The notes beneath the pieces were generated by a model. That model was given only the letters and a program-made list of their open reading frames with translations. It had not been told where the DNA came from and did no database searches. From the IMG/VR virus record IMGVR_UViG_3300037245_001419, positions 124,001-188,000 of that record: a DNA stretch of 64,000 bases; one strand, written 5' to 3'. This document shows, piece after piece, positions 17,788-34,261 of this stretch. Both the position numbers and the translations under genes were made by a program. The stretch is from a virus. Numbering within the stretch: position 1 is the stretch's first letter; each line of letters opens with the position of its first letter.

Positions 17788-17800
17788 AATGTGAAAATTT

Positions 17801-18227: not shown

Positions 18228-18228
18228 C

Positions 18229-18372: not shown

Positions 18373-18375
18373 ATA
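18368..18375 (+). promoter_or_regulatory. T4-type late promoter TATAAATA
   Basis: Exact match, overlaps the preceding stop, 23 bp before the gene at 18398. Confidence 0.8.
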
Positions 18376-18397
18376 ATAGAATAAAGCGGAGGGACGA

Positions 18398-19073: not shown

Positions 19074-19075
19074 CT

Positions 19076-19594
19076 GTGAACTTTAAAGATTTTTATAGCA
19101 TAGACCCAGTAATAGTTAATCTCTCTGAAGCACTTCAGATGGACGAAGAAACTGTTGCAGATCTGCGTTCATCTACAGATTCTGGAAGAAAGAAAAGATC
19201 TGGCCCAGTGGGTTCATTTTTTGAGAATGTATCAGCTAATTGGACGGTTATGTATACCTCTACTGCAGTAACTACACCAGGCGTAAGCCGTTGGACTCAA
19301 TATATTCAACCAGTAAATTTACCTGGACTGCGAGCATCACTAGATGAAGTGAGAGCATCATTTAATGGTGACGTTTTGGCGCATTGTACGTGTCCAGATT
19401 ATCGTTACAGGCTCGAATATTATGCAACACAAGATAGTTGGAATTATGGATCTGGGCAATCGACACCACCAAATGTAACAAATCCACCACCACCTCAGTA
19501 TGGAAAACTATGCAAGCATCTGGTAAATAGCATGGGTGTTATCAAAGGATCAACACCTACGATATTAAGCAATTACAGAAAGAAATTTTTATAG
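19076..19594 (+). CDS. SWIM-like zinc-binding virion candidate
   Basis: 172 residues from a GTG start two bases after the preceding stop. N-terminus MNFKDFYSIDPVI fits the targeting pattern of its neighbours. The C-terminal half holds HCTCPDYRYRLEYY and, 30 residues later, LCKHLVNSMG, giving a C-x-C-x(n)-C-x-H zinc site like a SWIM finger with a long Pro/Asn insert. Role unknown; a packaged DNA- or protein-binding protein is a fair guess. Confidence 0.75.
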   Translation: MNFKDFYSIDPVIVNLSEALQMDEETVADLRSSTDSGRKKRSGPVGSFFENVSANWTVMYTSTAVTTPGVSRWTQYIQPVNLPGLRASLDEVRASFNGDVLAHCTCPDYRYRLEYYATQDSWNYGSGQSTPPNVTNPPPPQYGKLCKHLVNSMGVIKGSTPTILSNYRKKFL

Positions 19595-19603
19595 GAGTAT
19601 TGA

Positions 19604-19858
19604 ATGAGTTTTTTTGAATTTTTAAATGAGAAAAGATTACTAGAAGAATTGGGAAACTTCCCAGACATAGCACTCAAAGCAGGTCGTAAGAAAAAATTCT
19701 TAGTAGTTGAATATAGTGAATGTGATGGTGGAATTAAGTTAAAATCCAACCAAGGCAAAGTTTTAGCTGAACATGACGTAGGGCAATTCCTACATGCAGA
19801 TCTACTTTGTCACTTCCTTGAGGCTCACGACCATCAAGTAAAACTAAAAGAGATATAA
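19604..19858 (+). CDS. small head-type protein with FFEFLNE N-terminus
   Basis: 84 residues, AGGAG before the ATG. MSFFEFLNEKRLLEE again matches a capsid-targeting-like start with an L-x-E site. The remainder is a small alpha/beta domain (KKFLVVEYSECDGGIKL, LLCHFLEAHDHQVKL) that I do not recognise. A late promoter overlaps its stop. Confidence 0.75.
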   Translation: MSFFEFLNEKRLLEELGNFPDIALKAGRKKKFLVVEYSECDGGIKLKSNQGKVLAEHDVGQFLHADLLCHFLEAHDHQVKLKEI

Positions 19859-19861
19859 ATA
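19854..19861 (+). promoter_or_regulatory. T4-type late promoter TATAAATA
   Basis: Exact match overlapping the preceding stop, 40 bp before the 19901 gene. Confidence 0.8.
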
Positions 19862-19900
19862 GTAACAGATTGATTGAATAATTCGGGAGGATAATTTAAT

Positions 19901-20221
19901 ATGAGTTTTAGACAATTTTTTTATGAAGGCATGGCCGTTCTTAATGATAGACAAAGCAAACTAGAAGCATCACCATACCCACGAGTGGGGAGAACTTCTT
20001 ATAATGCAGTCGATGAGAATACATGGTCTGGTCACGATGCACACGCACATGGATTTAATCTAGATGAGAACGGTAACGGTAAAACAGATAGCTTCGGTAA
20101 CGTAAGCGGAAAAGATACCCACTACCATGAAGTTAGAGGATGGGCAGTATTGCCAGCCAATAACCACGCTCACGGACTTACAGACAAATCTATCAGCGAT
20201 AAGAACTTCAAGAACAGCTAA
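19901..20221 (+). CDS. histidine-rich virion candidate with FRQFFYE N-terminus
   Basis: 106 residues; CGGGAGG upstream. MSFRQFFYEG opens the protein. The body has regularly spaced histidines (GHDAHAHGF, THYHEV, NNHAHGL) around a D-x-N-G-N-G-x-T-D turn that looks like a calcium- or metal-binding loop. It ends the late block; its stop overlaps the stop of a convergent small gene. Confidence 0.8.
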   Translation: MSFRQFFYEGMAVLNDRQSKLEASPYPRVGRTSYNAVDENTWSGHDAHAHGFNLDENGNGKTDSFGNVSGKDTHYHEVRGWAVLPANNHAHGLTDKSISDKNFKNS

Positions 20222-20358
20222 GGATTAAAGTAATCACCTTCAGATGGTATTTCTTTATCCCACGGCCAATAGACATGAAAATTATCTGGTATGTAATGAA
20301 TGCCAGGTATTAAACTTATGGAAATCACTATGTGATTTTCGTTTGTGATTATACACAT
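20218..20358 (-). CDS. small unknown protein
   Basis: 46 residues, too short for usual ORF lists. AGGAG stands 10 bases before the ATG, and the ATG overlaps the preceding stop (TAATG). Contains IPGIHYIPDNFHVYWPW. Last gene of the 25.5-20.2 kb early operon. Confidence 0.55.
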   Translation of the reverse strand: MCIITNENHIVISISLIPGIHYIPDNFHVYWPWDKEIPSEGDYFNP

Positions 20359-20783
20359 TATTTTTTATCTCCTGTCCAAGTATCCCATTCTTTCCAACGT
20401 GTAAAATTAATATGTATTTCTTTTTCAGAGAAATACTTTAGTTTTAGTTGGCATATTTCTTCAAGGCCGTCAATACGAGAGTAATTCAACGCACATCCCT
20501 TGCTACTACAAATATCCTTCAGCTTACTCAATTGATTTTGAGGTATACCAAGTGTATAGTAATAGTCTCCACTATAACGCAACGCCCACGCATGCCTATC
20601 ACCATCTTCACCTGATCTAACTAAAGTAATTTTATCAGTCAACCCATACTTATAATTACCAATCAACAAACTAAAGTTCATACTACTATTACTATAACCA
20701 GACGGTTTACCTTCAAAATGAGTGTTAAATATATTTCCGTATAAGTATTTGAGCACTACTTTTCTTTTATCTAACTTTGCCAT
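20358..20783 (-). CDS. KLKY-family paralogue 1
   Basis: 141 residues. Starts MAKLDKRKVVLKYL; the C-terminal part reads ICSSKGCALNYSR, then GLEEICQLKLKYFSEKEIHI, the signature shared by nine proteins in this window. The KLKYF codons contain the interspersed decamer. Function unknown. Confidence 0.85.
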   Translation of the reverse strand: MAKLDKRKVVLKYLYGNIFNTHFEGKPSGYSNSSMNFSLLIGNYKYGLTDKITLVRSGEDGDRHAWALRYSGDYYYTLGIPQNQLSKLKDICSSKGCALNYSRIDGLEEICQLKLKYFSEKEIHINFTRWKEWDTWTGDKK

Positions 20784-20786
20784 ACA

Positions 20787-21170
20787 TTACCAGGTTTTAA
20801 ATTCTACTTCTTTATCTGCAAAATACTTTAGTTTGATTGCACAAATCGCTTCGAGACCTTCTTCTCTTGATAGCAGCATAGCCTTGTTCCTATCCTTCAA
20901 TATCTCTTCTGCCATTTTAACCTTATCTAAATGTATCTCAAAAGCAAACCAATAAGGCGTACACCCATACGTAGCACGCACAGGATTATATAACAACCCT
21001 TTACTTACTCTAATTCCACTAAGCTTTACCAGCTCATATTTATCAGTTAAAACATAACTATAATTGCCGATACGTAAACTGTAGTATGTCATCCTAGAGT
21101 ATATGTTACCTCTATACGCATACCCATGTAAACGATGTACCCGTACTTTTCTTTTATCAAGCTTTGCCAT
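20787..21170 (-). CDS. KLKY-family paralogue 2
   Basis: 127 residues from the ATG at 21170 (TTG at 21173 is closer to no better site). N-terminus MAKLDKRKVRVHRLHGYAY, C-terminus AMLLSREEGLEAICAIKLKYF. Most similar to paralogue 1, three bases away, so a tandem duplication is likely. Both contain a YVLTDK or YGLTDK turn in the middle. Confidence 0.85.
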   Translation of the reverse strand: MAKLDKRKVRVHRLHGYAYRGNIYSRMTYYSLRIGNYSYVLTDKYELVKLSGIRVSKGLLYNPVRATYGCTPYWFAFEIHLDKVKMAEEILKDRNKAMLLSREEGLEAICAIKLKYFADKEVEFKTW

Positions 21171-21507
21171 CAAATATTATCTCCGTATTGGGAAAACACT
21201 TTAGTTTGCACTCACAGAAATCCACTATCTTATTATCATTATCTCGTGAATGAAGAACAGCATATCGTGAGTGCTCACAAATCTTTTTAACTATATCTAA
21301 CTTAGCCTCTGAGAATGAAAATGTATGAGACCTTCTTACAGACCATTGATTGTCATGAACAGTCATAGATGGACGACGAGTTACATTTCCTTTATGGTAA
21401 TCATATAATACGTTATCTATTAATAATCTGAAGTAGTGATTGTCATGAAATACATTGATGCCGTTATCGTGTAAAAACTTAAGTTTAACTATCTTTTTCT
21501 TTGTCAT
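21157..21507 (-). CDS. KLKY-family paralogue 3
   Basis: 116 residues. Starts MTKKKIVKLKFLHDNG; C-terminus ICEHSRYAVLHSRDNDNKI then VDFCECKLKCFPNTEIIF. Third consecutive family copy, overlapping its neighbours by 14-23 bases. Confidence 0.85.
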   Translation of the reverse strand: MTKKKIVKLKFLHDNGINVFHDNHYFRLLIDNVLYDYHKGNVTRRPSMTVHDNQWSVRRSHTFSFSEAKLDIVKKICEHSRYAVLHSRDNDNKIVDFCECKLKCFPNTEIIFDGKA

Positions 21508-21784
21508 ACATTTTTATTCGGTGTGGATAAAGCTTTTTCAAATCATCTAACGTTTCATGCATTTGCTGCAAAAGCTCTCGACCTTTGGTAGGCTTAAAAC
21601 AACCCATTTTAGTTTTTTCTTCGTCTGATTTACGAATGCCATTTTCATCCCACCATATCTCTAACATTCTATCATTACCATCTTTACACACTCTATCATA
21701 TACAAGTTTATGATTTACAAATCTGTCATTGCAACATTCATAAGAATCACATTCGTTACAACCACCAGTAATTTCTTCACTCAT
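21485..21784 (-). CDS. small cysteine-rich protein
   Basis: 99 residues. GCNECDSYECCNDRF near the N-terminus and two further cysteines (RVCKDG, MGCFKP) could bind zinc; the C-terminus is helical and charged. Not recognised. Confidence 0.8.
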   Translation of the reverse strand: MSEEITGGCNECDSYECCNDRFVNHKLVYDRVCKDGNDRMLEIWWDENGIRKSDEEKTKMGCFKPTKGRELLQQMHETLDDLKKLYPHRIKMYDKEKDS

Positions 21785-22476
21785 TTGTTTTTCCTCCGTT
21801 TTTTGCCGCCAGGTAACGTTTTAAAAGAGTAATCATAGAACCCCTTAGAATCTCGTATGACTTCATCAGATCCAACAGGAACTGTCCCTTGTGACTCCAA
21901 CGCCAACTCATTATTAAGATACATATGCAGCTCTTGCATTGCAGTATATGGATCTAGAACTCTAACGAAATCTAAAGGTTTCAACTCAGGATTAACTTCT
22001 AATCCATATTTGGAATCACGCCAATAATGATCATGAATTACCCTAAAGATAGGCACTTTATATTTTAAAAATAATGATTGAAGAAACTTATTATTGCGCA
22101 TCTTCTCATATGCATTTTTATATGAATAATTATCTCTAATATGATGTCGCCTACCCTCCTTTGAGTATTCAGCAAAGAATATATCCATTTCATCAGAATC
22201 AAATATATACCGATCTTTAGTATGATAATTTGAAGACACTACTTTCACATAAGGATATATCACTCCGGCAAAACCGATAGCTTCAATCTCATGAATAGTA
22301 TTGGATTTATTCCAATCATCCCAATATATACAGTGATCATCCCATGTGAATATTTCCAACTTATGTAGAGCATTTTCAATTATTTCAGTTTTACGTTCAT
22401 ACACTGGCACAACCTCGTCTTGAAACATGTTCAAGACGGAGTCGTAGTAATCAGTAAACTTGGAATAGATCCTCAT
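21781..22476 (-). CDS. conserved phage protein of unknown function
   Basis: 231 residues. MRIYSKFTDYYDSVLN, the central IGFAGVIYPYVKV and a charged C-terminus match a type of protein often annotated hypothetical in large phages. No catalytic motif visible. ATG overlaps the end of the NADAR gene. Confidence 0.85.
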   Translation of the reverse strand: MRIYSKFTDYYDSVLNMFQDEVVPVYERKTEIIENALHKLEIFTWDDHCIYWDDWNKSNTIHEIEAIGFAGVIYPYVKVVSSNYHTKDRYIFDSDEMDIFFAEYSKEGRRHHIRDNYSYKNAYEKMRNNKFLQSLFLKYKVPIFRVIHDHYWRDSKYGLEVNPELKPLDFVRVLDPYTAMQELHMYLNNELALESQGTVPVGSDEVIRDSKGFYDYSFKTLPGGKKRRKNK

Positions 22477-22958
22477 TACTTTTCATCCATAAACTTTTTA
22501 CGAACATCCATCAGACATATACCCAATAGATTTTTTCCCTTCCAGTTTTTCCGGTCAAATCTTTTCGGGTCATGCTCATCCAAACCGATACCCCAAATCT
22601 TATCAACAGGGGAAGCTTCAACAAGTTCTTTATCACCAGTATCAAACATATACTTTTTTAGTTGCTCGTTCTGACCGAACTTAGCTATGTTCGCATCGAT
22701 AACAATTTTAATGCGGTGCTTATTCCACTCAGCATCATTAAAGCCTTCAACCATACGACCATGCATTTTTTGATCCCATGGATTTTTAGCTTCGAGTATC
22801 ATAGCGAGTCGTTCGTCATCATTAAAGACCCGTGCCTTACCTGCCATCATGTATTGCTCTGCAGTTAAGTATGTAACTCCATCAACGACAAATTCTGATT
22901 TGAACCACTGGCTAAAAGGGCCACCGTAAAAGAAATGAAAATTGTTAGGCTTAGTCAT
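22476..22958 (-). CDS. NADAR-family protein (YbiA-like)
   Basis: 160 residues from ATG 22958; a longer frame to 23030 lies inside the macro gene and is rejected. FYGGPFSQWF, LTAEQYMMAGKARVF, NPWDQKMHGR, WNKHRIKIVIDANI, VDKIWGIGLDEHD and WKGKNLLGICLMDVRKKF are the family motifs in order. NADAR proteins cleave ADP-ribose-type N-glycosidic bonds; some remove ADP-ribose from guanosine in DNA and act as antitoxins to DarT1. It overlaps the macro-domain gene by 8 bases, so the two are co-translated. Confidence 0.92.
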   Translation of the reverse strand: MTKPNNFHFFYGGPFSQWFKSEFVVDGVTYLTAEQYMMAGKARVFNDDERLAMILEAKNPWDQKMHGRMVEGFNDAEWNKHRIKIVIDANIAKFGQNEQLKKYMFDTGDKELVEASPVDKIWGIGLDEHDPKRFDRKNWKGKNLLGICLMDVRKKFMDEK

Positions 22959-23439
22959 TAGTTTTTCCTCCAAGTAATGTTTCTGCTTCAACCAGTGTGG
23001 CATTCTTGTCCCATATGACAACGGTAACATCTTCTCCTCCTAGTTCTTCATTAATAATTAGTTCTATAATTTCCCAGTCACCTCTTGCAAGACCAGCACC
23101 TATTTTAGGCATGCCAATCTTCTTGCCAGAGAACAACTTTTTAATACATCTCATTGCACCACGAACAGCATCGTAGTCAATGTTTATGTTTTGCCTGTTA
23201 CAACCAAACTGTGTGTAAGAGTTTATAACTGTTGGCTTAGTTTTCATAGTGTATGTAATCGTACCCAACTTACTTCTATCACCCTTAATAGTTGCTTTAT
23301 CCTTTTCCCAGGCTTCAGGGAAACTTTCTTTAATCTGTGGCGCAATACCAGACCCCATGTTACAGAAGCAGTTACAGCCATGTGTAATAGCATCAAACTG
23401 AAGTGCATCTTTTACGAGGTCTCCTTTAATATACTTCAT
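22951..23439 (-). CDS. macro-domain protein (ADP-ribose hydrolase/phosphatase-like)
   Basis: 162 residues. MKYIKGDLV, then ITHGCNCFCNMGSGIAPQI, KLGTITY, VINSYTQFG and IGMPKIGAGLARGDWEIIELI follow the Poa1/TARG1-type macro fold; the NxxxxMGSGIA and GAGLARGDW loops form the ADP-ribose pocket. Such enzymes hydrolyse ADP-ribose esters or ADP-ribose-1''-phosphate, and DarG-type macro domains remove ADP-ribose from thymidine in DNA. Paired with NADAR downstream. Confidence 0.92.
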   Translation of the reverse strand: MKYIKGDLVKDALQFDAITHGCNCFCNMGSGIAPQIKESFPEAWEKDKATIKGDRSKLGTITYTMKTKPTVINSYTQFGCNRQNINIDYDAVRGAMRCIKKLFSGKKIGMPKIGAGLARGDWEIIELIINEELGGEDVTVVIWDKNATLVEAETLLGGKTND

Positions 23440-23918
23440 TTACCCTTCTTGTAGTTAAAAAATTTGTCAATGTCTTTTTCTTCACCCTGATCTCTGAACA
23501 TGTTAATAGATGATATAAGGTCTTCGTAACTATCAACTAGGTAGTTATGCTTAATTTTAACATCAAATGGTATAACGTGTTTTGGGAAAAACTTTAGTTT
23601 AATCTTCGAGAATAGGTTCACTTCATCAGATTTATGTCTGTGGATAAGAGCCATGTTAGTGGACGTACATATCTCAGAAACCGCAGTTAAGTCATCAGCA
23701 CTAAACATAAATGTATAATGGAAAGAAGACGACGACCCATACCAACGTTGCTTAGACCTATCCTCATAAGTTTTAGCATCGTACCGCACAAGATTGTCAT
23801 TCAACATCATGTATTTGTAGTTGCCAACCAACAAGTTAAAATGAACCCCATCTTTTGAATCACGAGGATGGCTTAGCAGCCATCTTAAATTAATTTTTCT
23901 ATCATCAAGATTAGCCAT
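23436..23918 (-). CDS. KLKY-family paralogue 4
   Basis: 160 residues, the longest member. MANLDDRKINLRWL resembles the start of paralogues 1 and 2; C-terminal core ICTSTNMALIHRHKSDEVN then LFSKIKLKFFPKHVIPF, followed by an extra 35-residue charged tail. Confidence 0.85.
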   Translation of the reverse strand: MANLDDRKINLRWLLSHPRDSKDGVHFNLLVGNYKYMMLNDNLVRYDAKTYEDRSKQRWYGSSSSFHYTFMFSADDLTAVSEICTSTNMALIHRHKSDEVNLFSKIKLKFFPKHVIPFDVKIKHNYLVDSYEDLISSINMFRDQGEEKDIDKFFNYKKGK

Positions 23919-24369
23919 TTTCAGCCTCCTTAGATTTTTTAGTTGCTAGATACTCAAGAGAGTATTTAATGTTATCGGTTACTTCAGTTACATTAGAAAA
24001 CAACATGTCTACCTTGTGGTAGTTATTATCATAAATCTTGTATAGCCGAAGACCGTCATCAAATATAATTAATGAATGCTGAGGGTATTGCTTCAATATT
24101 GTTTCAGTGTACTTCAAATCCATTAACGTCTGGTCTAGGTATGCTGCCTCGTGATTCTCCTCAAGTGTGTAATGCATGGGGGAACTATCACGTACTTTTT
24201 CACGCTTAATGTTTTCACATTTATTTTTAGTAATACGTTGTTGTATGCCAAAGCTGTTACCACGCTTATCAATAAGCACAAAGTTCATCTTAACACGAGT
24301 GTGTATTAAGTTATAACACGCTGAAAGCATCTTAGATGATTCGCTTAGTGTAAAATACCGTTCTGTCAT
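23911..24369 (-). CDS. unknown early protein
   Basis: 152 residues, alpha/beta, with a lysine-rich central stretch. No motif recognised. Overlaps both neighbours (8 and 4 bases), so it belongs to the operon. Confidence 0.85.
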   Translation of the reverse strand: MTERYFTLSESSKMLSACYNLIHTRVKMNFVLIDKRGNSFGIQQRITKNKCENIKREKVRDSSPMHYTLEENHEAAYLDQTLMDLKYTETILKQYPQHSLIIFDDGLRLYKIYDNNYHKVDMLFSNVTEVTDNIKYSLEYLATKKSKEAENG

Positions 24370-24590
24370 GTTTCACCCTCATAAGAGTTTATTATGTTTA
24401 CCGCCTCTTCCATGCTATACGTTGGACTAGACTCACTGTCTCTATTTTTATCCATCCTAGCTACTTTCCAATAGTCCGCAGTTCTAGAATTCTCAATATC
24501 ATCTTCGGTTATTGTGCGTAATGCATCATTTAACCCAATCTGGCCGATCTTATAACACAAGTCATAGTCGGTTAACTTTTTTACATCCAA
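24366..24590 (-). CDS. unknown early protein
   Basis: 74 residues, acidic and helical (DLCYKIGQIGLNDALRTI). Possibly starts slightly downstream. Not recognised. Confidence 0.75.
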   Translation of the reverse strand: MDVKKLTDYDLCYKIGQIGLNDALRTITEDDIENSRTADYWKVARMDKNRDSESSPTYSMEEAVNIINSYEGET

Positions 24591-24618
24591 TCCATTGACC
24601 TCTCCAACCCAGTGATTA

Positions 24619-24855
24619 TTATTCTTCCACGCTCTCTTTTACTACTTTAGTTTGATCTTCCTGACTGTCAATATACAGCTGAAGCATACCACCGACAACG
24701 GCATCAAATGATACACTATAACCATCACATACAGTCATGATATGATCTATAGTTTCGTCGCTTATAGTAACATCTATCTCTGATACTTTAGTCATGGATA
24801 GATGTTTTTCATACAATTTAAAGTATGATTTTTCTGGTACTTTTGGTGTATCCAT
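24619..24855 (-). CDS. unknown early protein
   Basis: 78 residues, helical in the second half (IDHIMTVCDGYSVSFDAVVGGMLQ). ATG overlaps the preceding TAA (TAATG type). Not recognised. Confidence 0.8.
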   Translation of the reverse strand: MDTPKVPEKSYFKLYEKHLSMTKVSEIDVTISDETIDHIMTVCDGYSVSFDAVVGGMLQLYIDSQEDQTKVVKESVEE

Positions 24856-25262
24856 TAATGCTCCTTCTCAGTGACTTCATCAACGAATTCCCATTTTTTG
24901 TCGGATGTATTGAATCTGTATATCATAACATCTTGATACTCAACTGCAATCTCAAGTATACCACTACGTATCATTTTACCGCTAGTGATTGATTCGAAAT
25001 ACGCAAGTATCTCATCAACATCACTATAGTCTCTGAGATCACCATAGAAGATAACCGCACGACATGCAAGAGCGTTCTCAGTACCTGTCTTGATAAGCTT
25101 GTATTCCAGGCTACCTTCACTACCACACGGCAGTATAGTGTCTTCTACATCATTCTCCCATGTAGATATTTCACCTAGTTCTTTTTCTGTTATGATGGGT
25201 ATACCTAGGGCAGGTATTCCGTCATATCTAATTGATGCATTTACATGAGTCCATTGGGACAT
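24855..25262 (-). CDS. unknown early protein
   Basis: 135 residues, predicted alpha/beta with IPALGIPIITEKELGEI near the N-terminus. Two bases separate it from the upstream gene. Not recognised. Confidence 0.85.
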   Translation of the reverse strand: MSQWTHVNASIRYDGIPALGIPIITEKELGEISTWENDVEDTILPCGSEGSLEYKLIKTGTENALACRAVIFYGDLRDYSDVDEILAYFESITSGKMIRSGILEIAVEYQDVMIYRFNTSDKKWEFVDEVTEKEH

Positions 25263-25263
25263 A

Positions 25264-25545
25264 TTATTCCTCGTCTTTGTTGAATATTTCTATAACCTGT
25301 TTTACCTTGTCGATCATATGAAGATCATCGCAATAAAATACCCCATCACCAACAAACTCACGCTGTTGAGTAAGATAAAAGTCAGGAACTTTATCCACTT
25401 TAGTTACTTCCTTCAAGACATTAGCTAAAGCAATCATTTTATACTTATCATCCATTTTTGTATCTTCACATACATCAGTACAAGAAGTAAAAGCTAAAGC
25501 ACCGATTATTAACTGTGCTTCTTTTTTAGTAATTTCTATTTTCAT
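25264..25545 (-). CDS. unknown early protein, first gene of the operon
   Basis: 93 residues: KIEITKKEAQLIIGALAFTSC, a helix-rich protein resembling small phage regulators in length only. First gene behind the promoter at 25578-25605. Confidence 0.85.
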   Translation of the reverse strand: MKIEITKKEAQLIIGALAFTSCTDVCEDTKMDDKYKMIALANVLKEVTKVDKVPDFYLTQQREFVGDGVFYCDDLHMIDKVKQVIEIFNKDEE

Positions 25546-25577
25546 AAGTTATTTCACAAAAGTGGCGTATATGTAAT

Positions 25578-25605
25578 AAAATAACAAAATAAAAGTTATT
25601 GTCAA
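25578..25605 (-). promoter_or_regulatory. early promoter for the 25.5-20.2 kb operon
   Basis: TTGACA, 16 bp, TATTTT reading leftward (17 bp gives ATTTTA). Its spacer lacks the AGTTAATTAACT palindrome of the 36-62 kb promoters. Confidence 0.6.
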
Positions 25606-25617
25606 TGTATTTTTTTA

Positions 25618-25646
25618 TTGAAATTAATAATTATATTTACTATACT
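25618..25646 (+). promoter_or_regulatory. sigma-70-type promoter, divergent
   Basis: TTGAAA, 17 bp, TATACT reading rightward toward 25682; back to back with the leftward operon promoter. Confidence 0.65.
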
Positions 25647-25681
25647 TATTATATAATATATGTACTAAGATTGGAGTTAAT

Positions 25682-25882
25682 ATGATTATTTGTGTTGAGT
25701 GTCACACAGAGATGAAAGTTGAGAAAAATGGTGTTGTTGTCCGCTATGGTGGAAACCACTGTTACTCAGGAGACAGTTGGAAATGCCCTACATGCGGTAA
25801 AATGGTAATCAATTGCAATAACAGCCCGTACCCTTCAGATGAACCTTTAGATCCGAAACACGATATCGAAATGAATCAATGA
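25682..25882 (+). CDS. small zinc-ribbon protein
   Basis: 66 residues. CVECHTEM near the start and WKCPTCGKM near residue 40 form a C-x2-C...C-x2-C ribbon. TTGGAGTT precedes the ATG. Overlaps the ligase gene by 4 bases. Confidence 0.85.
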   Translation: MIICVECHTEMKVEKNGVVVRYGGNHCYSGDSWKCPTCGKMVINCNNSPYPSDEPLDPKHDIEMNQ

Positions 25883-26901
25883 TAAAAATAGTAGATGACT
25901 TACTGTACATGATTCGCCAGTTGAAAGCAGTTGAATTGTCAATAGACAAGCTAGACATTATAGAGAAATATCCTCAATGTAGAAATTTATTGGAGATAAC
26001 CTATAATCCTTTTAAGCACTTCGCAGTTGGTACAAAACAGATAGATAAAGAGTTAGAATCTACTTTAGTTGATATTCCGAAAATAGATAAGCCGTACATC
26101 ATGATCCATCACTTCTACAATTTTTTAAACGATTCGTTGCTTAACAAAAGATACAGTCGTTCTGTAGGAATCAAAGCGATAAAGAGATGGTGTACAATAT
26201 TTCCCGAATATGAGACCCTTATTATCAACATTTTCAATAAGAACTTGAAGTGTGGAATAGATGCTCAGCTTATCAATTGTATCTATCCGAAACTTATACC
26301 AATGTTTAACCCTACACGACCCAAAATTTGGGATACGATGTGTCCTAAGAGGGTCTTTTCTGAGTACGTTACAATGGAGAAGGTTGAGGGCGAACTGGTC
26401 TACATGAGCATTAGAAACCGAAAGGTGAACATATATAGCAAGCACACCATACCTATTGTCACATTGAATTACCTTAAGGATGAAGTACAGTCATTTATCG
26501 ACATTACTGATATTGATAATATCATGATTGAAGGTCATGTATTCATAGGCAACCAGAGCTTTGATGAGTCTCACCAGAGCATCGTTAGAGGCAGTAAGAA
26601 GTTAACTAATATAATATTTAAAGTGTATGACATACTAACCCTCGATGAGTTCGAGGTGTATTACGACGAGTCAAAAAAATACACAGATCGACATAAGAGA
26701 TTCGCAGAGATGGGTTTCTCTAATTTAAGTATGATACAAGTCGTACCATACCAGCAGTATGATCCAAACGGTGAACACATACTATCACACATGAAAACAA
26801 CAATTTCCGATAACAATTGGAAAGGAGCAATTCTTCGTAAGAACATACCTTACGACATTAAAATTTCGTATAACATAATTAAAGTATACCCCAATTCGTA
26901 A
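25879..26901 (+). CDS. ATP-dependent DNA ligase, T4 gp30 type
   Basis: 340 residues. The helical N-terminal domain carries KAIKRWCTIFPEYE and LKCGIDAQLINCIYPKLIPMF as in T4 ligase. Motif I is EKVEGELVY with the putative AMP-accepting Lys168; the usual K-x-D-G is K-x-E-G. Motif III/IIIa is MIEGHVFI and FKVYDIL, motif IV GAILRK, motif V IKVYPN. The chain stops at motif V, so the C-terminal OB domain present in T4 ligase (487 residues) is absent or minimal. Seals nicks during replication or repair if active. Confidence 0.85.
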   Translation: MIKIVDDLLYMIRQLKAVELSIDKLDIIEKYPQCRNLLEITYNPFKHFAVGTKQIDKELESTLVDIPKIDKPYIMIHHFYNFLNDSLLNKRYSRSVGIKAIKRWCTIFPEYETLIINIFNKNLKCGIDAQLINCIYPKLIPMFNPTRPKIWDTMCPKRVFSEYVTMEKVEGELVYMSIRNRKVNIYSKHTIPIVTLNYLKDEVQSFIDITDIDNIMIEGHVFIGNQSFDESHQSIVRGSKKLTNIIFKVYDILTLDEFEVYYDESKKYTDRHKRFAEMGFSNLSMIQVVPYQQYDPNGEHILSHMKTTISDNNWKGAILRKNIPYDIKISYNIIKVYPNS

Positions 26902-26917
26902 TTTTACGGAGGTAAAT

Positions 26918-27406
26918 ATGAAAACAATAATTAGTACAGGACTTCGAGGCGCAAGCCAAGGAGCTGTAGGAGCAGCATTTATTAATGAGATAGCTGTAGA
27001 TGGATATTGTCCAAAAGGATTTATCTTGCCAACAGGCAAGCAACCAGAACTCGCATCAATGGGACTCAAAGAGCATGAGTCAGACTCGGTTGTAGAGTGT
27101 TTTGAAGATAACATGAACGCATCAGACGGCACAATATTTTTCTTTATGGAGAGCCTGGTAGACCAACTCGATAAAGAGTTAATGGACATCGTTGAAGCGT
27201 CAAACACACCATCACTACTGATAGACCTTGATAGCCCTTTGGACGTAAGAATCGTTGAGAAATTTATCCAGAAAAATGACATAGAGACCTTGCACGTAGA
27301 CGGCTGTCAAGACTCGCCCCACGATAAAACCATATATAAGTTTGTGTGTGGATATGTAACTAAAGTAGTTAAGAACCTAAAACATGAGGCTTTATTCGAG
27401 CACTAG
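26918..27406 (+). CDS. YpsA-like SLOG / molybdenum-carrier-type protein
   Basis: 162 residues, GGAGG upstream. IISTGLRGASQGAVGAAF replaces the usual SGGQTGVD loop, then GYCPKGFILPTG, ENMNASDGTIFFF and LHVDGCQDSPH match the circularly permuted YpsA/pMoCo-carrier branch of SLOG proteins, which bind nucleotides such as NAD or ADP-ribose derivatives. Ligand and reaction unknown; the altered first loop is noteworthy. Confidence 0.8.
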   Translation: MKTIISTGLRGASQGAVGAAFINEIAVDGYCPKGFILPTGKQPELASMGLKEHESDSVVECFEDNMNASDGTIFFFMESLVDQLDKELMDIVEASNTPSLLIDLDSPLDVRIVEKFIQKNDIETLHVDGCQDSPHDKTIYKFVCGYVTKVVKNLKHEALFEH

Positions 27407-27413
27407 GAGCAAC

Positions 27414-27902
27414 ATGAGCAAACCCTCACTACTAAGAAAAGAGATGGAAGACAGACGTATAGAGATGAAAGGAAAATTAAATGCAGTTGAAGTAGAATTA
27501 GTACAGATACCAAATACCCACTTTAAGTCTGAAGAATGTCAACGTCTAAACTCCACAAAGAGATTATTAATTAAAGAACTAAACAAATTAACTATAGGGA
27601 TTAAGAATATCATGGAACTCGAATCAGACCCTAATGTAGTAAAACAAATGGATGACATCTATAAAAAACTTGAATCTGGCGAGATGTCACCATCTGACTT
27701 GCAGAACATGGTAGTCAAGATGGAGGGCGGTGTTGAAAATGACGATGATACCCCAGACTGGCTAACTGAAGTAGACGATGATGAGAATGAAGATTCAGAC
27801 ACTATTGAACCAAAAAAAGAGGAAGAGGACGAAAAAGGAGTAAATACCGCTTCAGACGATGATATATCTCAATCTGTAGACGATCTACTCGACAATTTAT
27901 AA
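27414..27902 (+). CDS. acidic coiled-coil protein
   Basis: 162 residues from ATG 27414 with AGGAG at 27405-27409; an earlier ATG at 27384 lies inside the previous gene. Residues 1-100 form a coiled coil, 105-162 are very acidic (DDDTPDWLTEVDDDENED) and end VDDLLDNL. Not recognised; a polymerase- or clamp-binding tail is one possibility. Confidence 0.85.
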   Translation: MSKPSLLRKEMEDRRIEMKGKLNAVEVELVQIPNTHFKSEECQRLNSTKRLLIKELNKLTIGIKNIMELESDPNVVKQMDDIYKKLESGEMSPSDLQNMVVKMEGGVENDDDTPDWLTEVDDDENEDSDTIEPKKEEEDEKGVNTASDDDISQSVDDLLDNL

Positions 27903-27905
27903 ATA
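27898..27905 (+). promoter_or_regulatory. T4-type late promoter TATAAATA
   Basis: Exact match overlapping the preceding stop, 33 bp before the NUMOD gene; the only one outside the 3-20 kb late block. Confidence 0.6.
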
Positions 27906-27937
27906 ATTTCATAAACACCATATATCTAGGAGACAAG

Positions 27938-28339
27938 ATGAAAATAATCTGGAAAGATATAAAAGGGTTTGAAGGAATTTATAAAATATCAAATACTGGC
28001 AGAGTAGTTCACAGTAAAACTCAAGCAGAACTCACAGGGCCGGACGTTACCTTAACTAAGAACAATACACGTTCAAAAGTTAAGATAACAAATATTATGA
28101 AGACTCACTACCCAGAGTTATTCGTAGTAAAAGAAATAGTTACAGATACTTTAGTTGAGACTTTAGTTGATGTGTTAGTGAAGGACATAACAGGCGAACA
28201 AAAACTTCTTGTCTTGTCCATCGAAGGAATTGAGTACACTTCTTATAGAGAAGCATCCGACAAATTGAACTTGAAAACGTCTACCATAAAGAGACGGGTC
28301 AACTCAAAAAAGTTCGAGGCTTACTTAAGCTTAGAGTAA
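27938..28339 (+). CDS. orphan NUMOD4-NUMOD1 DNA-binding protein
   Basis: 133 residues, AGGAG upstream. IIWKDIKGFEGIYKISNTGRV is a NUMOD4 motif; residues 95-130 (YTSYREASDKLNLKTSTIKR) match NUMOD1. These modules normally flank an HNH or GIY-YIG nuclease in homing endonucleases; the central 60 residues here contain no HNH histidines, so it is a nuclease-less derivative that may bind DNA only. Confidence 0.8.
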   Translation: MKIIWKDIKGFEGIYKISNTGRVVHSKTQAELTGPDVTLTKNNTRSKVKITNIMKTHYPELFVVKEIVTDTLVETLVDVLVKDITGEQKLLVLSIEGIEYTSYREASDKLNLKTSTIKRRVNSKKFEAYLSLE

Positions 28340-28362
28340 CAATTTTTTCGGGAGACATGGTC

Positions 28363-28653
28363 ATGATTATGAAAATTAATCATTATGACTTTCTAACAAC
28401 ATATCAACTAGATGATAGGTCTAGCTGGTATTTGTCTCTAAAACCAGAAAAGATGCAAAGAATAAATACGATTGTATACAGCGTATGTACATCTAATAGT
28501 TTAGCTCTTCTGTATTCGAAGTTCGAATCTAAAGAGTTTAAATATTTGAGTAACGATATAAACGAGTTGTGTAAAATAAAGCTAAAACACAGTGAACCTA
28601 TATTCATTGAAAGGAAATATAATTATGAGCAAAAAAAAAACATTCGGGATTGA
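28363..28653 (+). CDS. KLKY-family paralogue 5
   Basis: 96 residues from the ATG at 28363, eight bases after GGAG; the ATG at 28357 is too close to that site. C-terminal core VCTSNSLALLYSKFESKEF then INELCKIKLKHSEPIFI. Overlaps the next gene by 29 bases. Confidence 0.8.
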   Translation: MIMKINHYDFLTTYQLDDRSSWYLSLKPEKMQRINTIVYSVCTSNSLALLYSKFESKEFKYLSNDINELCKIKLKHSEPIFIERKYNYEQKKNIRD

Positions 28654-29122
28654 CGATTACATTAATAAAGACCTGAAGCAGCTAGGTAAAGAAGAGGATA
28701 CAACTTCTAAAAAAGCACCCAAGCTTACTATGTTACGCTATATGGTAACGCCTAGACAATTCAATCAAAACTTTGGTGAAAACAAACCAAATCTAGTTCA
28801 GCCTGTAGAAGAATTCAACATGAATAACGATGTGTACAACATGGTTTATGTTCTATTCAATCATGACAAAGAGATTTGGAGAATGTTTACCACCATGGAA
28901 TCACAAGAGACTGTAGAGCTTATCAGAGATAATAAAGCTGGCCGTGTCGAGTTGATATGCCGTGAGAACTATCACGCTATCGTTAGACTTAAAGATGACA
29001 ACAAAAAAATTCAAGAGCTTGCTGACTTCAAAAGAAAGTATAAGCAAAATATCGATGTGTATCATCTTGAATTAGACTTCGCACAAGGTGTAAAGAAGTT
29101 CGTCGGTCAAGAAATAGCATAA
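28625..29122 (+). CDS. unknown protein
   Basis: 165 residues from ATG 28625 with AAGGAAAT upstream. Basic N-terminus, then an alpha/beta domain with VYNMVYVLFNHDKEIWRMF and AGRVELICRENYHAIVRL. Not recognised. Sits among KLKY-family genes and ends in a TAATG overlap with the next. Confidence 0.85.
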   Translation: MSKKKTFGIDDYINKDLKQLGKEEDTTSKKAPKLTMLRYMVTPRQFNQNFGENKPNLVQPVEEFNMNNDVYNMVYVLFNHDKEIWRMFTTMESQETVELIRDNKAGRVELICRENYHAIVRLKDDNKKIQELADFKRKYKQNIDVYHLELDFAQGVKKFVGQEIA

Positions 29123-29442
29123 TGAAAACGGTCGTAAAATACGGATTCGACGACCATGGGAATAAGATAGAACCAGAAAATGTCGATGGAACCTTAAATG
29201 GTTCCGTTGGTATTTTATACTATGATATTAATGAAGGTCTTGATAGATTCACATTTTACCACCACGATGAAATAGAATTAGCACAAGATATAATGGAATC
29301 TGGCAACTTGATTTCGTCTATATTAAACATCCGCAATAATAATAAATACATTTGTAGGTTGTGTGAATGGAGACTAAAGAATCGTAAGATTAAATTAGTA
29401 TATGGTGATGAGAAATCCTATAACCCAAGTCTGTCTTGTTAA
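29122..29442 (+). CDS. KLKY-family paralogue 6 (divergent)
   Basis: 106 residues. C-terminal NNNKYICRLCEWRLKNRKIKLVYG aligns with the family core, with R-L-K in place of K-L-K. The N-terminal half differs from other members. Confidence 0.75.
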   Translation: MKTVVKYGFDDHGNKIEPENVDGTLNGSVGILYYDINEGLDRFTFYHHDEIELAQDIMESGNLISSILNIRNNNKYICRLCEWRLKNRKIKLVYGDEKSYNPSLSC

Positions 29443-29782
29443 GATACAAAAAATTTATACTGAAACACGATCAGTAGAGTATTTTCTTAAGGGTAAAATT
29501 ACAGACGTATACAACTCAAAAAATTTCGATAACAGATTAAAAGCCTCATTTATAACTAACGATACTGGTTATAAATGGGGCTTCTTTCGTCACACCTACA
29601 GCGAAGAATTCTTTGAGCTTGTCACAGATATATGCTCCAACAATGCAATCGCAATAATCAACATGCAACATGAAGAAAAGTTTATAAGGAAGCTGGCTTG
29701 GTACAAACTGAAGTACAGGTCGTGTATTCCTATTAAGGAAAAGATAGTATTACAAACTCAAAAAAACAGACTCATGAATTAA
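29402..29782 (+). CDS. KLKY-family paralogue 7
   Basis: 126 residues, start at 29402 or 29408 without a clear ribosome site, 41 bases inside the previous gene. Core ICSNNAIAIINMQHEEKFI then RKLAWYKLKYRSCIPI; its KLKY codons are an exact decamer copy (29706-29715). Confidence 0.8.
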   Translation: MVMRNPITQVCLVKIQKIYTETRSVEYFLKGKITDVYNSKNFDNRLKASFITNDTGYKWGFFRHTYSEEFFELVTDICSNNAIAIINMQHEEKFIRKLAWYKLKYRSCIPIKEKIVLQTQKNRLMN

Positions 29783-29784
29783 GA

Positions 29785-30018
29785 ATGTTCGTTACTATTC
29801 TTGTCAATTCAGTTTTGTTTAAACTGGTTAAATACGATGGGGATAAATTTGCAAATAAACTTCAGTTTCAAGTAATCAAATCAGACATACCTAAGATAAT
29901 TTCGATATGTAAAAACAATGCTGCAGCCTTGATACATTCAAGAGATGATAGTGAACAGATAAGAAAATTTTGTGTGATTAAGCTTAAGCATAAAGAGATG
30001 ATTAAGATATTTTATTAA
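29785..30018 (+). CDS. KLKY-family paralogue 8, minimal
   Basis: 77 residues, the shortest member, essentially the C-terminal core alone: ICKNNAAALIHSRDDSEQI then RKFCVIKLKHKEMIKIF. It helps define the domain boundary. Confidence 0.75.
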   Translation: MFVTILVNSVLFKLVKYDGDKFANKLQFQVIKSDIPKIISICKNNAAALIHSRDDSEQIRKFCVIKLKHKEMIKIFY

Positions 30019-30049
30019 GGGAGAGGATGCGAGTGACACCCTCTCCCTT
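30017..30049 (+). terminator. terminator of the 25.7-30.0 kb rightward operon
   Basis: Stem AAGGGAGAGG / CCTCTCCCTT with a 13-base loop directly at the stop of paralogue 8. Confidence 0.75.
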
Positions 30050-30077
30050 ACACTGACCGAGGGTAAGAGGTCAGTGT
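30050..30077 (-). terminator. terminator of the leftward 32.1-30.1 kb operon
   Basis: Stem ACACTGACC / GGTCAGTGT; overlaps the stop codon of the leftward membrane protein gene. Back to back with the rightward terminator. Confidence 0.65.
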
Positions 30078-30418
30078 TGAGGCTCTTCTTTACAATGTTT
30101 AACACGCCCACGCAAGTCTGTCATGACGATAAAATTTTCTCTTCCATAAGACTTGTATAGGTAATAATTAACTTTATTTTTACAAACTATAATGGTATTT
30201 TGTTGTTTCTCAACATGAACATGCATTAACCCATGATGAGTATGTTCACCATTTACATTATCGACTGTCCTATTTTTGACACTTAAAGGAGATTCTACTG
30301 AATATAAAATAAGACCCCACAAAATTAAACCTATAAATGCAAAAATAATAGAATATTTTTTAAGTTTGTCACTCTCTTCTTTATTAACATCAAACATATA
30401 TTTTAAATACCCTATCAT
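30071..30418 (-). CDS. single-pass membrane protein
   Basis: 115 residues. One hydrophobic helix, residues about 22-41 (YSIIFAFIGLILWGLILYSV), then a histidine-rich segment GEHTHHGLMHVHVEK and a basic C-terminus. Not recognised. Confidence 0.8.
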   Translation of the reverse strand: MIGYLKYMFDVNKEESDKLKKYSIIFAFIGLILWGLILYSVESPLSVKNRTVDNVNGEHTHHGLMHVHVEKQQNTIIVCKNKVNYYLYKSYGRENFIVMTDLRGRVKHCKEEPQH

Positions 30419-30430
30419 CAGTCACACCAA

Positions 30431-30652
30431 TTACTTGCCACGTCTTTTACGTCTTTCTCTTTTCTCTCGATTCTTTCTTTTGCCAGTAAATATCTTACCT
30501 AGCTCTGATCGGTTGTCATGCTTGCTGACTTGCATTAACTCTTCCTGTTTTGCTGTCATCTGCTCTCTATGCACTCGTTCATAACGCTCAGGGTCTAACC
30601 CTTTCATTTCTTCTTTGCTGAATTGCTCAATCATTCCTGTTCTTGTATCCAT
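30431..30652 (-). CDS. small highly basic protein
   Basis: 73 residues; helical with a terminal cluster KRKNREKRERRKRRGK suggesting nucleic acid binding. Not recognised. Confidence 0.75.
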   Translation of the reverse strand: MDTRTGMIEQFSKEEMKGLDPERYERVHREQMTAKQEELMQVSKHDNRSELGKIFTGKRKNREKRERRKRRGK

Positions 30653-30663
30653 ACTTTACTCCT

Positions 30664-31011
30664 TTAACACCAACACGATTCTAAACTTATTTTACTTAAT
30701 GTTTCTTTATCTGTAACTACTTCTACTTCGATATTAAGTAACTTTCGTATATCGAACCCTTCTTTTCTTCTAAATGCCCTTGCCCAATAACCAACTTCGG
30801 AAGCTCGTATGAGAAGCTTGTTGTTATCAGCTATTTCTATTTCATTAACAGAAAAATAATGCACTTCTTTTTCATAGCACATTTTTAATTTGTCATTTTG
30901 CTTTAAAGTATCTTCTGAATGAAATTCTATTACACATCCATCTAAACCAATCATTCGTCCAGACCGTCTGTCACGCTCAGCAACTTTTATAGAAGCATTA
31001 ATTATTTTCAT
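30664..31011 (-). CDS. unknown protein
   Basis: 115 residues from ATG 31011 with GAGGAG upstream; overlaps the preceding stop (ATGA). Mostly beta; no motif recognised. Confidence 0.8.
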   Translation of the reverse strand: MKIINASIKVAERDRRSGRMIGLDGCVIEFHSEDTLKQNDKLKMCYEKEVHYFSVNEIEIADNNKLLIRASEVGYWARAFRRKEGFDIRKLLNIEVEVVTDKETLSKISLESCWC

Positions 31012-31553
31012 GACTCCTCTTCCCCTATCCACTTCCTGTCTTGCAACAATTTAATAATCTCTTCTGCACTAGGTGACTTAGGCATCGGCTTCCACAAAAT
31101 GATCGGGTCGCATCGCTCTATACGATTTTCAGTGAGTTTTCCATCTTTTTCGAAACCATACGCACTAGTCATTTTAAACCCGTCTTTTTTACGAAAAAAC
31201 TCTTGATGTACGCTGGGCCTGTTTAACATAGTACCAGTCCAACAAGGATCATAATCAATAGCCAAAACATATGTACCAAATCTACCTTCTTGAATTTCTG
31301 GTAGTTGATCATCAACGAATATCCACTCGTCTTTTACCTTGTCCGCTATTGCTTCAGCTATGATTTCATCAGACCGTTTCTTTCTAGCTTCCCATGCTGA
31401 ACCACCACAATCCTTACAAACCATTTTGTCGTGAAATTTAATTGGAATTATGAAAGCACTGGAAGAAATACAATGTGGATTGCCGCACTTGTAATAAACT
31501 TCTTCGGCTGCCAGTTCTTCTTTTACGATGGCTAGTATTTCTTCTTTATTCAT
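31008..31553 (-). CDS. DUF551-like protein with zinc ribbon
   Basis: 181 residues from ATG 31553; the longer frame to 31664 lies in the previous gene. A ribbon C-G-N-P-H-C ... CKDCGG occupies residues 20-55. The C-terminal part starts WIFVDDQLPE and ends PIILWKPMPKSP, which fits the DUF551 pattern (W-x-x-x-x-x-x-L-P to W-x-P-x-P). Confidence 0.8.
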   Translation of the reverse strand: MNKEEILAIVKEELAAEEVYYKCGNPHCISSSAFIIPIKFHDKMVCKDCGGSAWEARKKRSDEIIAEAIADKVKDEWIFVDDQLPEIQEGRFGTYVLAIDYDPCWTGTMLNRPSVHQEFFRKKDGFKMTSAYGFEKDGKLTENRIERCDPIILWKPMPKSPSAEEIIKLLQDRKWIGEEES

Positions 31554-31839
31554 AAGCAATAGGATATTGAGATTTAGGCTTGCACTGTATGATCTTGCTG
31601 TCTGTACCAAACTTTGCAGATAAAGAAAATATGTGGACACCAGCACTATAAACATATGTAACACCGTCTATACAAGCTGTTTTGCTATAGTGCTCTATTT
31701 GATTAATAAGTCTTTCCTCAGCTCTTTCACGTTCTTTTTTTGAATCGAAACCTTCGCACGCAACAGCGCAGAATAATGCAACTATCAATATCACGATTAA
31801 TGATAGTTGCAGATTAGGATGATCATTAATACACATCAA
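31546..31839 (-). CDS. small exported or membrane-anchored protein
   Basis: 97 residues. Hydrophobic segment SLIVILIVALFCAVACEGF looks like a signal peptide ending in a possible lipobox (AVAC), then KERERAEERLINQI and a compact CIDGVTYVYSAGVHIF domain. Such CIDGVxY proteins are common in phages of enterobacteria; function unknown. Confidence 0.8.
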   Translation of the reverse strand: MMCINDHPNLQLSLIVILIVALFCAVACEGFDSKKERERAEERLINQIEHYSKTACIDGVTYVYSAGVHIFSLSAKFGTDSKIIQCKPKSQYPIAYE

Positions 31840-32105
31840 TTAAACTCATCAGGAACAGTAACTAACAGAGCATTCCCTATTATACAATCCATGTTAAAAT
31901 ATTTCCTAACATATTCAGTAGCCCTCAGATTGATTTGTTGGTCTTGTTTTAATCTACTCTCTTCATCAACCAGAAGAACTGTGTCTTCGTCAATAGTGAT
32001 CGCTTCCACCATCTCACAACCTATCAAATCGTAGTATGATTTCAGATGATCTTCACCAATTTCAACTGAAGTAACTTCACCATTTGTATTGTACAAAGTC
32101 GCCAT
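31836..32105 (-). CDS. DUF3846-like protein
   Basis: 89 residues. LYNTNGEVTSVEIG, LIGCEMVEAI, VLLVDEESRLKQDQQIN and IIGNALLVTVP follow the DUF3846 pattern. First gene of the short leftward operon; overlaps the next by 4 bases. Confidence 0.8.
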   Translation of the reverse strand: MATLYNTNGEVTSVEIGEDHLKSYYDLIGCEMVEAITIDEDTVLLVDEESRLKQDQQINLRATEYVRKYFNMDCIIGNALLVTVPDEFN

Positions 32106-32202
32106 GTTATTTCCTTTTTATTTGCGTTCCCACATTAAATATAACTAAAAAATATTAATTGTGTTATACTTTTTTAATAACAGATAAAAACGGAGTAAGA
32201 TT

Positions 32203-32547
32203 TTGATAACTAAAGTACATAAAACCGTATTAAGAGTGGCAGATATAACTGACACGGACGTTGATGAGCGCTTATATAATTATGTCAGATATAAATCTGA
32301 CGATATGGAGTTCACTACACATGCAGTATTTGACGGTATTGTAGAGGAAATATTAACTAACAAGAGCTTTGCAATCTTGTATTCAAGGGATAGAGACAAA
32401 AACATTCGTGACTTGGTGAATTACTCAATGAGAAACAAATGCGAGTTTGAATTGGTAAAGGAAGAAGCCGTGTCTTGCCATGTAGACATGTATGACTGGG
32501 AATCTTTATATGTGTCAACATTTTCAGAGACTGCTTTAGCTGTCTAA
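32203..32547 (+). CDS. KLKY-family paralogue 9 (divergent)
   Basis: 114 residues from a TTG start seven bases after CGGAG. Core ILTNKSFAILYSRDRDKNI then RDLVNYSMRNKCEFELV aligns with the family, although the K-L-K triplet is replaced by S-M-R. A single-gene unit, separated from the other members. Confidence 0.75.
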   Translation: MITKVHKTVLRVADITDTDVDERLYNYVRYKSDDMEFTTHAVFDGIVEEILTNKSFAILYSRDRDKNIRDLVNYSMRNKCEFELVKEEAVSCHVDMYDWESLYVSTFSETALAV

Positions 32548-32626
32548 GATGCTGTGTATTGCTGTTTTAAGGTGTCTCTAAGGCACTTTCTCTCAGCCTT
32601 GGTGTTTAGCTATAGATACAAAAAAA

Positions 32627-32666
32627 CCCCTGCCATTTATCAATAGTTAAGTCAACAGGGCAGGGG
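32627..32666. terminator. bidirectional terminator
   Basis: CCCCTGCC / GGCAGGGG flanked by A-run on the left and T-run on the right, between convergent genes. Confidence 0.85.
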
Positions 32667-32688
32667 TTTTTCAATAGGGTTGTTGCTA

Positions 32689-33261
32689 TTAAGCAACAGC
32701 CTTTTGAGCCCGACTTTTCTTTAAAGACCTGTTTTCTTTTTCAAGCTTTGCAATATTAGCCTTCATTGTGTCATGTTCATCAGCACGACTAATATCTTCC
32801 ATAACAGCGACAATGCTACTAGGGGTTTCTTCAATCTCTTTAGCAAGCTTATCAGATTCAATCTTTTTACGCATTACTGAATTAATTAACTCTTTATGCT
32901 CTTTGGTGAAGCTATCAGAACCTTTTGTAAGCTCGTATAACGCCATGAATTTGCTAAGATCGAAACGTCCTTCACCTTTAGGCATGCTGTATACAGGCTT
33001 GCTGTAATCCGAACCTATAGCAAACTGAGCCTTGATCTCTTGTGCGCTATAGCCTTGATCAGCCATGAGAACAACTGCATCTCTTCTCGTTTTAGCTTCT
33101 TCGATTGTTTCCATTGTACCAAAATAATCTTGAGTTTTGCCAACTTTTTTAATTATACGAAACTTACCATTCCAGTCTACAATATATTTCATCGTAGGGT
33201 CTTTTTTTGCTTTTTTTTCTTGGGAGGCGATTGCGTTTTCTGATTTGTTAGATGCGCTCAT
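32689..33261 (-). CDS. AP2-like DNA-binding family, member A
   Basis: 190 residues. After a charged head, residues 27-75 read GKFRIIKKVGKTQDYFGTME then a helix TRRDAVVLMADQG, a beta-beta-beta-helix AP2-like pattern shared with the genes at 33526 and 52039. The C-terminal 60 residues are coiled coil. Probably binds DNA; target unknown. Confidence 0.8.
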   Translation of the reverse strand: MSASNKSENAIASQEKKAKKDPTMKYIVDWNGKFRIIKKVGKTQDYFGTMETIEEAKTRRDAVVLMADQGYSAQEIKAQFAIGSDYSKPVYSMPKGEGRFDLSKFMALYELTKGSDSFTKEHKELINSVMRKKIESDKLAKEIEETPSSIVAVMEDISRADEHDTMKANIAKLEKENRSLKKSRAQKAVA

Positions 33262-33300
33262 GTTTACCTTTCCTTTTGAGTAAATTATCTTTCTTTACTA

Positions 33301-33329
33301 AAGATAGAATATAATTACTAAGAAGTCAA
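33301..33329 (-). promoter_or_regulatory. early promoter
   Basis: TTGACT, 17 bp, TATCTT, toward 32689-33261; the spacer is TCTTAGTAATTATATTC, a degenerate form of the conserved palindrome. Confidence 0.75.
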
Positions 33330-33390
33330 ATATTATTTACAGAAATAATATTTTTTATGCATTTTTATTATTAAGATGAAATAGTACATA

Positions 33391-33480
33391 TTATTTTTCG
33401 CTGTCTTTCAGCTTTTTAAGCTCTAAATACCAATGTAATACAGTTTCTTTGATTTTCTTTGGAGTTTTTTTAATAGACAT
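33391..33480 (-). CDS. possible very small protein
   Basis: 29 residues (MSIKKTPKKIKETVLHWYLE and a lysine-rich end), AAGG ten bases before the ATG. Lies in the 264-bp gap between two AP2-like genes. Tentative. Confidence 0.4.
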   Translation of the reverse strand: MSIKKTPKKIKETVLHWYLELKKLKDSEK

Positions 33481-33500
33481 ATTATACCTTAAACGAAAAA

Positions 33501-33520
33501 AGGAGTGCCGAAGCACTCCC
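33501..33520 (-). terminator. terminator
   Basis: GGAGTGC / GCACTCC with a TTCG tetraloop on the transcribed strand and a T-run, after the gene at 33526. Confidence 0.85.
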
Positions 33521-33525
33521 TTTTA

Positions 33526-34242: not shown

Positions 34243-34261
34243 ATGGCATTCCTTTTATTTG

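Follow-up and report, generated by a model that had tools for sequence, protein, structure and literature searches.

A family of 16 small proteins, here called the KLKY family, is encoded by the virus of IMG/VR record IMGVR_UViG_3300037245_001419 (211,777 bp). Ten of its genes lie in the 64,000-nucleotide stretch that we analyzed (record bases 124001-188000, hereafter ‘the window’), and six elsewhere, at 40.1, 52.6, 59.6, 72.4, 72.7 and 73.3 kb; coordinates without kb are window positions, and these kb figures are whole-record positions. A constant, short helical module near the C-terminus is found on three or more kinds of N-terminal part (CxxC zinc-ribbon-like, helical, and small beta-rich). 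This is the outstanding feature of the family, and it is absent from the original prediction, which was made from the window sequence without database searches and described nine paralogs. We propose, at a probability of roughly 0.4, a lineage-specific docking role for the module, with the variable parts binding different partners; the system would act in replication and host takeover, and would have expanded within a counter-defense region.

These genes almost certainly form one paralogous family. A profile of seven hand-picked cores, run against all 2,163 stop-to-stop open reading frames (ORFs) of the record, recovers the nine previously named genes (members a to i below), all at the places and on the strands claimed, along with a tenth in the window and further ones elsewhere in the record, so that the count of nine was too low. 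Beyond its seeds, the profile detects the 59.6-kb protein (E = 4e-10), 28363 (5e-8) and 32203 (1.5e-5), as well as the 72.7-, 52.6-, 73.3- and 72.4-kb proteins and window gene 28625, with E-values of 4e-10 to 0.013 across unseeded members; 28625-29122 scores 2.7e-4 at the first pass, and about 1e-14 or better once the search is iterated. Because seeds match their own profile, a leave-one-out test was applied to every named member: eight of the nine were recovered at held-out E-values of 8e-13 to 2.5e-7 and the remaining one, 29122, at 0.0011, meaning that 9/9 are detected by a profile excluding the protein tested. At E < 0.01 the real ORFs yielded 14 matches and the reversed ORFs none, and among the 43,260 sequences of 20 shuffled sets there was a single one (0.0078). 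When proteins were compared all-against-all by phmmer, without seeds (E < 1e-3), 14 of the 16 members fell into a single component (eight of the nine named genes, 28625, and five genes elsewhere in the record), the biggest paralog family of the genome (runner-up, n = 7). The held-out E-values, virtually empty controls and phmmer component together show that the members are related. Gene 32203 enters through the profile only, and the least certain of the 16 is the 40.1-kb member, which has a weak profile score of its own (0.03-0.5) and was included for its likeness to 28625 (a common C-terminal tail, judged by eye). The window members are as follows.

20358-20783, minus strand: member a, 141 amino acids, beta-type; module at about residues 85-124.
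20787-21173, minus strand: member b, 127-128 amino acids, depending on whether the start is the ATG at 21170 or the TTG at 21173; shares 14-17 bp with gene c, and its N-terminus, MAKLDKRK, resembles that of member a.
21157-21507, minus strand: member c, 116 amino acids.
23436-23918, minus strand: member d, 160 amino acids, with a C-terminal tail of 44 residues; its stop overlaps the start of a macro-domain gene by 4 bp.
28363-28653, plus strand: member e, 96 amino acids, with a short insertion inside the module.
28625-29122, plus strand: tenth member, overlooked in the original prediction, 165 amino acids; GGAAA upstream of the ATG, and a C-terminal tail like that of the 40.1-kb member.
29122-29442, plus strand: member f, 106 amino acids, the weakest beta-type seed.
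29402-29782, plus strand: member g, 126 amino acids; overlaps gene f by 41 bp.
29785-30018, plus strand: member h, 77 amino acids, the minimal member.
32203-32547, plus strand: member i, 114 amino acids, TTG start; joined by profile only.

The family consensus is roughly N-x-x-A-[IVL]-[LI]-x-[ST]-[RK]-x(4-6)-[IV]-[RK]-x-[FYL]-C-x-x-[KF]-[LM]-K. A common core is real, but the portion shared by all members is shorter (about 28-35 residues) than the 40-45 residues first described; and while that core had been placed at the protein end, it is more exactly near the C-terminus, several members carrying tails of 14-44 residues beyond it. A longer core of 45-55 residues, with a strand before and after the module, is confined to a beta-type subgroup comprising the ten window copies and the 59.6- and 40.1-kb proteins. 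In a second subgroup (52.6, 72.4, 72.7 and 73.3 kb) the module closes the protein, preceded at 52.6 kb by an N-terminal part of helical appearance, and in the other three by one with two CxxC-type pairs, resembling a zinc ribbon. Alignment of the zinc/helical to the beta-type subgroup with hhalign gives a probability of 95.5% (E = 1.4e-8, 28 columns). The two separate in a tree with moderate support (93/91), and within the beta-type group nothing is resolved beyond ortholog groups. An AlphaFold2 (AF2) model of the 59.6-kb protein (near-identical L024 copy) predicts strands at 13-20, 32-34, 38-46 and 91-95, and helices at 48-59, 61-69 and 74-83, where the predicted local distance difference test score (pLDDT) is about 91-95; the model of member c agrees, with a core of one strand and three helices (pLDDT about 82-95).

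Evidence for constraint on the module comes from a related contig of 104,109 bp, retrieved by a scan with the zinc-type module. This relative is collinear with the part of the record that reaches from roughly its start to 85 kb, and carries orthologs of all six non-window members in the same places (three between genes 47 and 46, one beside 45, one beside 61, and one at 40.1 kb, the last tandemly duplicated in the relative). Identity in the module versus the rest of the protein is 69 v 32, 60 v 25, 52 v 41, 61 v 43, 37 v 41 and 97 v 65% in the six ortholog pairs; the excess conservation of the module is strong in 3/6 pairs and, pooled over all six, corresponds to a Mantel-Haenszel odds ratio of 2.68 (p = 3.3e-7). 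Nonsynonymous divergence (dN) is well under synonymous divergence (dS) wherever dS is unsaturated (0.217 v 1.607 for the 40.1-kb pair), which indicates that the orthologs are constrained proteins; a near-identical contig offered too few differences for selection tests. Given that six members, placed within or close to the replication and recombination genes, have same-place orthologs in a second phage, the family predates the counter-defense cluster and extends beyond it. In the roughly 24 non-collinear kb of the relative, itself a fragment, there is no family copy, and the ten window copies accordingly look lineage-specific.

These observations bear on the possibility that the genes are duplicates lacking a common function, with the module persisting by drift in a large genome as the stable helical leftover of an ancestral protein. 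Such an origin could account for how little the window copies resemble one another (15-40% identity to member a) and for the absence of resolution in the beta-type phylogeny, but it fits poorly with a consensus recognizable in 16 copies, purifying selection in the ortholog pairs, conserved gene positions and intact overlapping reading frames, and we regard it as improbable.

A constant, better-conserved module, combined with varying N-terminal parts and repeated placement beside replication and recombination genes, looks instead like a docking module. Through the module, every family protein would be tied to a single partner shared by all, most likely a phage replication or recombination component, or host machinery taken over there, and the variable N-terminal part would provide the specific target or activity. 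Ancestral copies would work in the replication gene clusters, and a lineage-specific set of ten would have been amplified in a variable region, home also to NAD/ADP-ribose counter-defense genes. We infer docking from conservation and host takeover from gene neighborhood, and the nature of the partner and the counter-defense use likewise. A more far-reaching version, in which one socket recruits both replication accessories and a counter-defense arsenal, with interchangeable zinc-ribbon-like, helical and beta proteins plugged onto a single phage-controlled assembly, is rather speculative. Large phages encode many small proteins without known relatives, for which a 16-member family offers a handle: the module could reveal the partner common to all, and each variable part would then indicate its own target. 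Should that partner be a replication or host component, the family would show how a phage gathers accessory and counter-defense proteins at one site.

Several results weigh against docking. Excess module conservation is missing from the 59.6-kb pair (37 v 41%), and the 72.4- and 52.6-kb pairs are not individually significant. AF2 packs the helices and strands of beta-type proteins into one small domain, so that a module with a separate head suits the zinc/helical types better. The conservation itself could equally mean a fold-stabilizing core or a nucleic-acid-binding surface. Were the latter correct, the module would be a nucleic-acid-binding element, and the family small DNA- or RNA-binding accessory factors for replication, recombination or transcription; this would suit the module’s net charge (0 to +7 in every member but one, at -1), the CxxC zinc-ribbon-like N-termini of three members and their orthologs, and the location beside genes 45, 46, 47 and 61. 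We nevertheless consider it unlikely, since many window modules are merely +1 to +2, no helix-turn-helix or other DNA-binding model scored above cut-off, and Foldseek searches of the AF2 models gave no significant fold match in PDB (best E-values 0.29 and 1.4) or BFVD, a negative that is weak because the models derive from shallow alignments of 11-12 rows.

In the window, the family genes are interleaved with macro, NADAR, ligase and SLOG genes, as originally described and now borne out by profile matches:

22476-23030, minus strand: NADAR protein (3.7e-51).
22951-23439, minus strand: macro-domain protein, DarG-like (Pfam 4.6e-6; DarG model 1.3e-12), directly downstream of member d.
25879-26901, plus strand: ATP-dependent DNA ligase (1.9e-20).
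26918-27406, plus strand: cpYpsA-type SLOG protein (1.2e-15).

The minus-strand order is member d, macro, NADAR, two genes of no assigned identity, then c, b and a; the plus strand has ligase, SLOG and two further genes (one with NUMOD4) ahead of members e, 28625, f, g and h, several of which overlap. The original prediction took the expansion as possibly reflecting counter-defense or host-target diversity, a suggestion for which the interleaving and the 4 bp that member d shares with the macro gene provide circumstantial support, and a counter-defense role for the window copies is plausible from neighborhood and analogy. Six members placed within or close to replication and recombination genes speak against its being the whole story. 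In its strict form, the module would be an active inhibitory domain, each paralog blocking a different variant of one host or defense protein, and the family an arms-race repertoire. Ten divergent copies among macro, NADAR and SLOG genes would fit such a repertoire, as would the argument that phage Macro, NADAR, SLOG and Nudix genes counter immunity based on NAD and ADP-ribose (Iyer et al. 2022, PMC9503650), and most member orthologs diverge faster than their neighbors (30-45% vs 61-75% identity). Yet the module is the slower part in most ortholog pairs, the reverse of what is expected of an arms-race surface, six copies with orthologs in the relative are located within or close to replication gene clusters, and PADLOC returned just a single weak, chance-level BrxA match (0.026). 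An inhibitory module thus appears doubtful.

Other features of this region may be recorded. The macro and NADAR genes overlap (22476-23439) and possibly encode two reversal activities on ADP-ribosylated nucleic acid. An ORF beside the plus-strand copies (27938-28339) contains a NUMOD4 motif and a weak match to the I-TevI DNA-binding domain, and is perhaps a homing-endonuclease remnant; in one account (PMC13096335), a homing endonuclease is reported to amplify anti-defense loci in T6. Outside the window, at record positions 35385-37766, a NAMPT gene adjoins a cytidylyltransferase-like/NUDIX gene, likely forming an NAD salvage pair that is also present in the related contig. A promoter scan gave no excess over shuffles.

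The statement that no described family has this signature holds across Pfam, PHROGs, NCBIfam, PADLOC, PDB sequences, and PDB and BFVD folds, and no profile comparison placed the core in a well-known domain of these libraries, in which family and module appear, from sequence and predicted fold, to be undescribed. In Pfam, PHROGs, NCBIfam and PADLOC the best E-values were about 0.001-0.1, nothing exceeding a curated cut-off or recurring between orthologs; weak PHROG matches (17369, 26282, 30966 and others) were rejected for the latter reason. The helical hairpin (S-x-D...VR..C...L) was considered as a HEAT repeat, but this reading was dropped, there being neither a Pfam HEAT match nor a tandem array. 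Profile search of PDB sequences found no relative (best E = 0.26), and four members queried by tblastn against 50,697 phage records had no match below E = 3. Word-based scans of IMG/VR and GTDB, which require short conserved words and which distant forms can escape, were queried with family members and located the module nowhere but in the 104-kb relative and fragments of this phage. Of 49 T4-like contigs collected with gp17, and of five T4-like phages known by name, none had a match, bar Caulobacter phage Cr30 at chance level (E = 0.03).

The phage itself is a large member of the T4 supergroup. Its gene order is T4-like (44, 62, 45, 61, 41, uvsX, 43, 47, 46); the replication neighbors gp43, gp41, gp61, gp45, gp44, gp46 and gp47 were named from sequence and order, with tblastn confirmation for gp43 and for gp17. 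Because the gp17 terminase and gp43 DNA polymerase are just 30-40% identical to those of T4-supergroup phages (confirmed by tblastn), and window bases 16000-36000 have no DNA-level match among the 50,697 phage records, it represents a deep, undescribed branch. The window also encodes a RegA-like translational regulator (17817-18227; PF01818, 4.9e-21) and a 225-amino-acid ORF (47698-48375) of repeated (Y)REANKDKIKAY units, a repeat that also yields internal DNA matches. Two more paralog families, one with seven small genes and one with four, are interleaved on the minus strand at record positions 197047-205807.

Just upstream of the family, small genes at 18398-20221 have N-termini like T4 capsid-targeting sequences (MSFFEFLNEK, MSFRQFFYEG, MPYFNEYIKT, MNFKDFYSID and MGFRQFFYVE); phmmer ties a 92.1-kb record gene (MSFKQFYTES) to the one at 19901. 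These genes possibly encode injected or prohead proteins. Their N-termini and position count, for the KLKY module, in favor of a sorting signal: a C-terminal tag that would route proteins to the prohead, to be injected along with the DNA, as in the T4 internal proteins but at the opposite end. Many small, diverse proteins with one terminal sequence is indeed the T4 internal protein pattern. In T4, however, the capsid-targeting sequences of IPI-IPIII and Alt are short, N-terminal, and cleaved by the prohead protease; several KLKY members extend in long tails past the module, and the gene clusters that contain or adjoin six of the copies are those of replication, not of the head. A pattern search found no family member among the capsid-targeting-like starts, and a sorting role seems very improbable.

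The T4 internal proteins are one of three known systems closest to the KLKY family: in both, diverse small proteins share a constant terminal sequence, and those of T4 meet host defenses. The KLKY module differs in being C-terminal, predicted to fold, and present among replication genes. A second comparison is with phage Macro/NADAR/SLOG counter-defense loci (PMC9503650), and with AdfB, a DarTG antitoxin mimic used in phage counter-defense (PMC11481870). Genes of the same types adjoin the window copies, whereas the KLKY proteins themselves have no detectable similarity to those domains. The third is domain mosaicism, in which a fragment is common to otherwise different phage proteins, including those of the replication machinery, and which has been ascribed to the arms race with the host (Smug et al. 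2023, PMC10684548). The KLKY family similarly places one fragment on otherwise differing phage proteins; what sets it apart is that a single undescribed module occurs 16 times in one genome, each time on a small protein with no assigned function.

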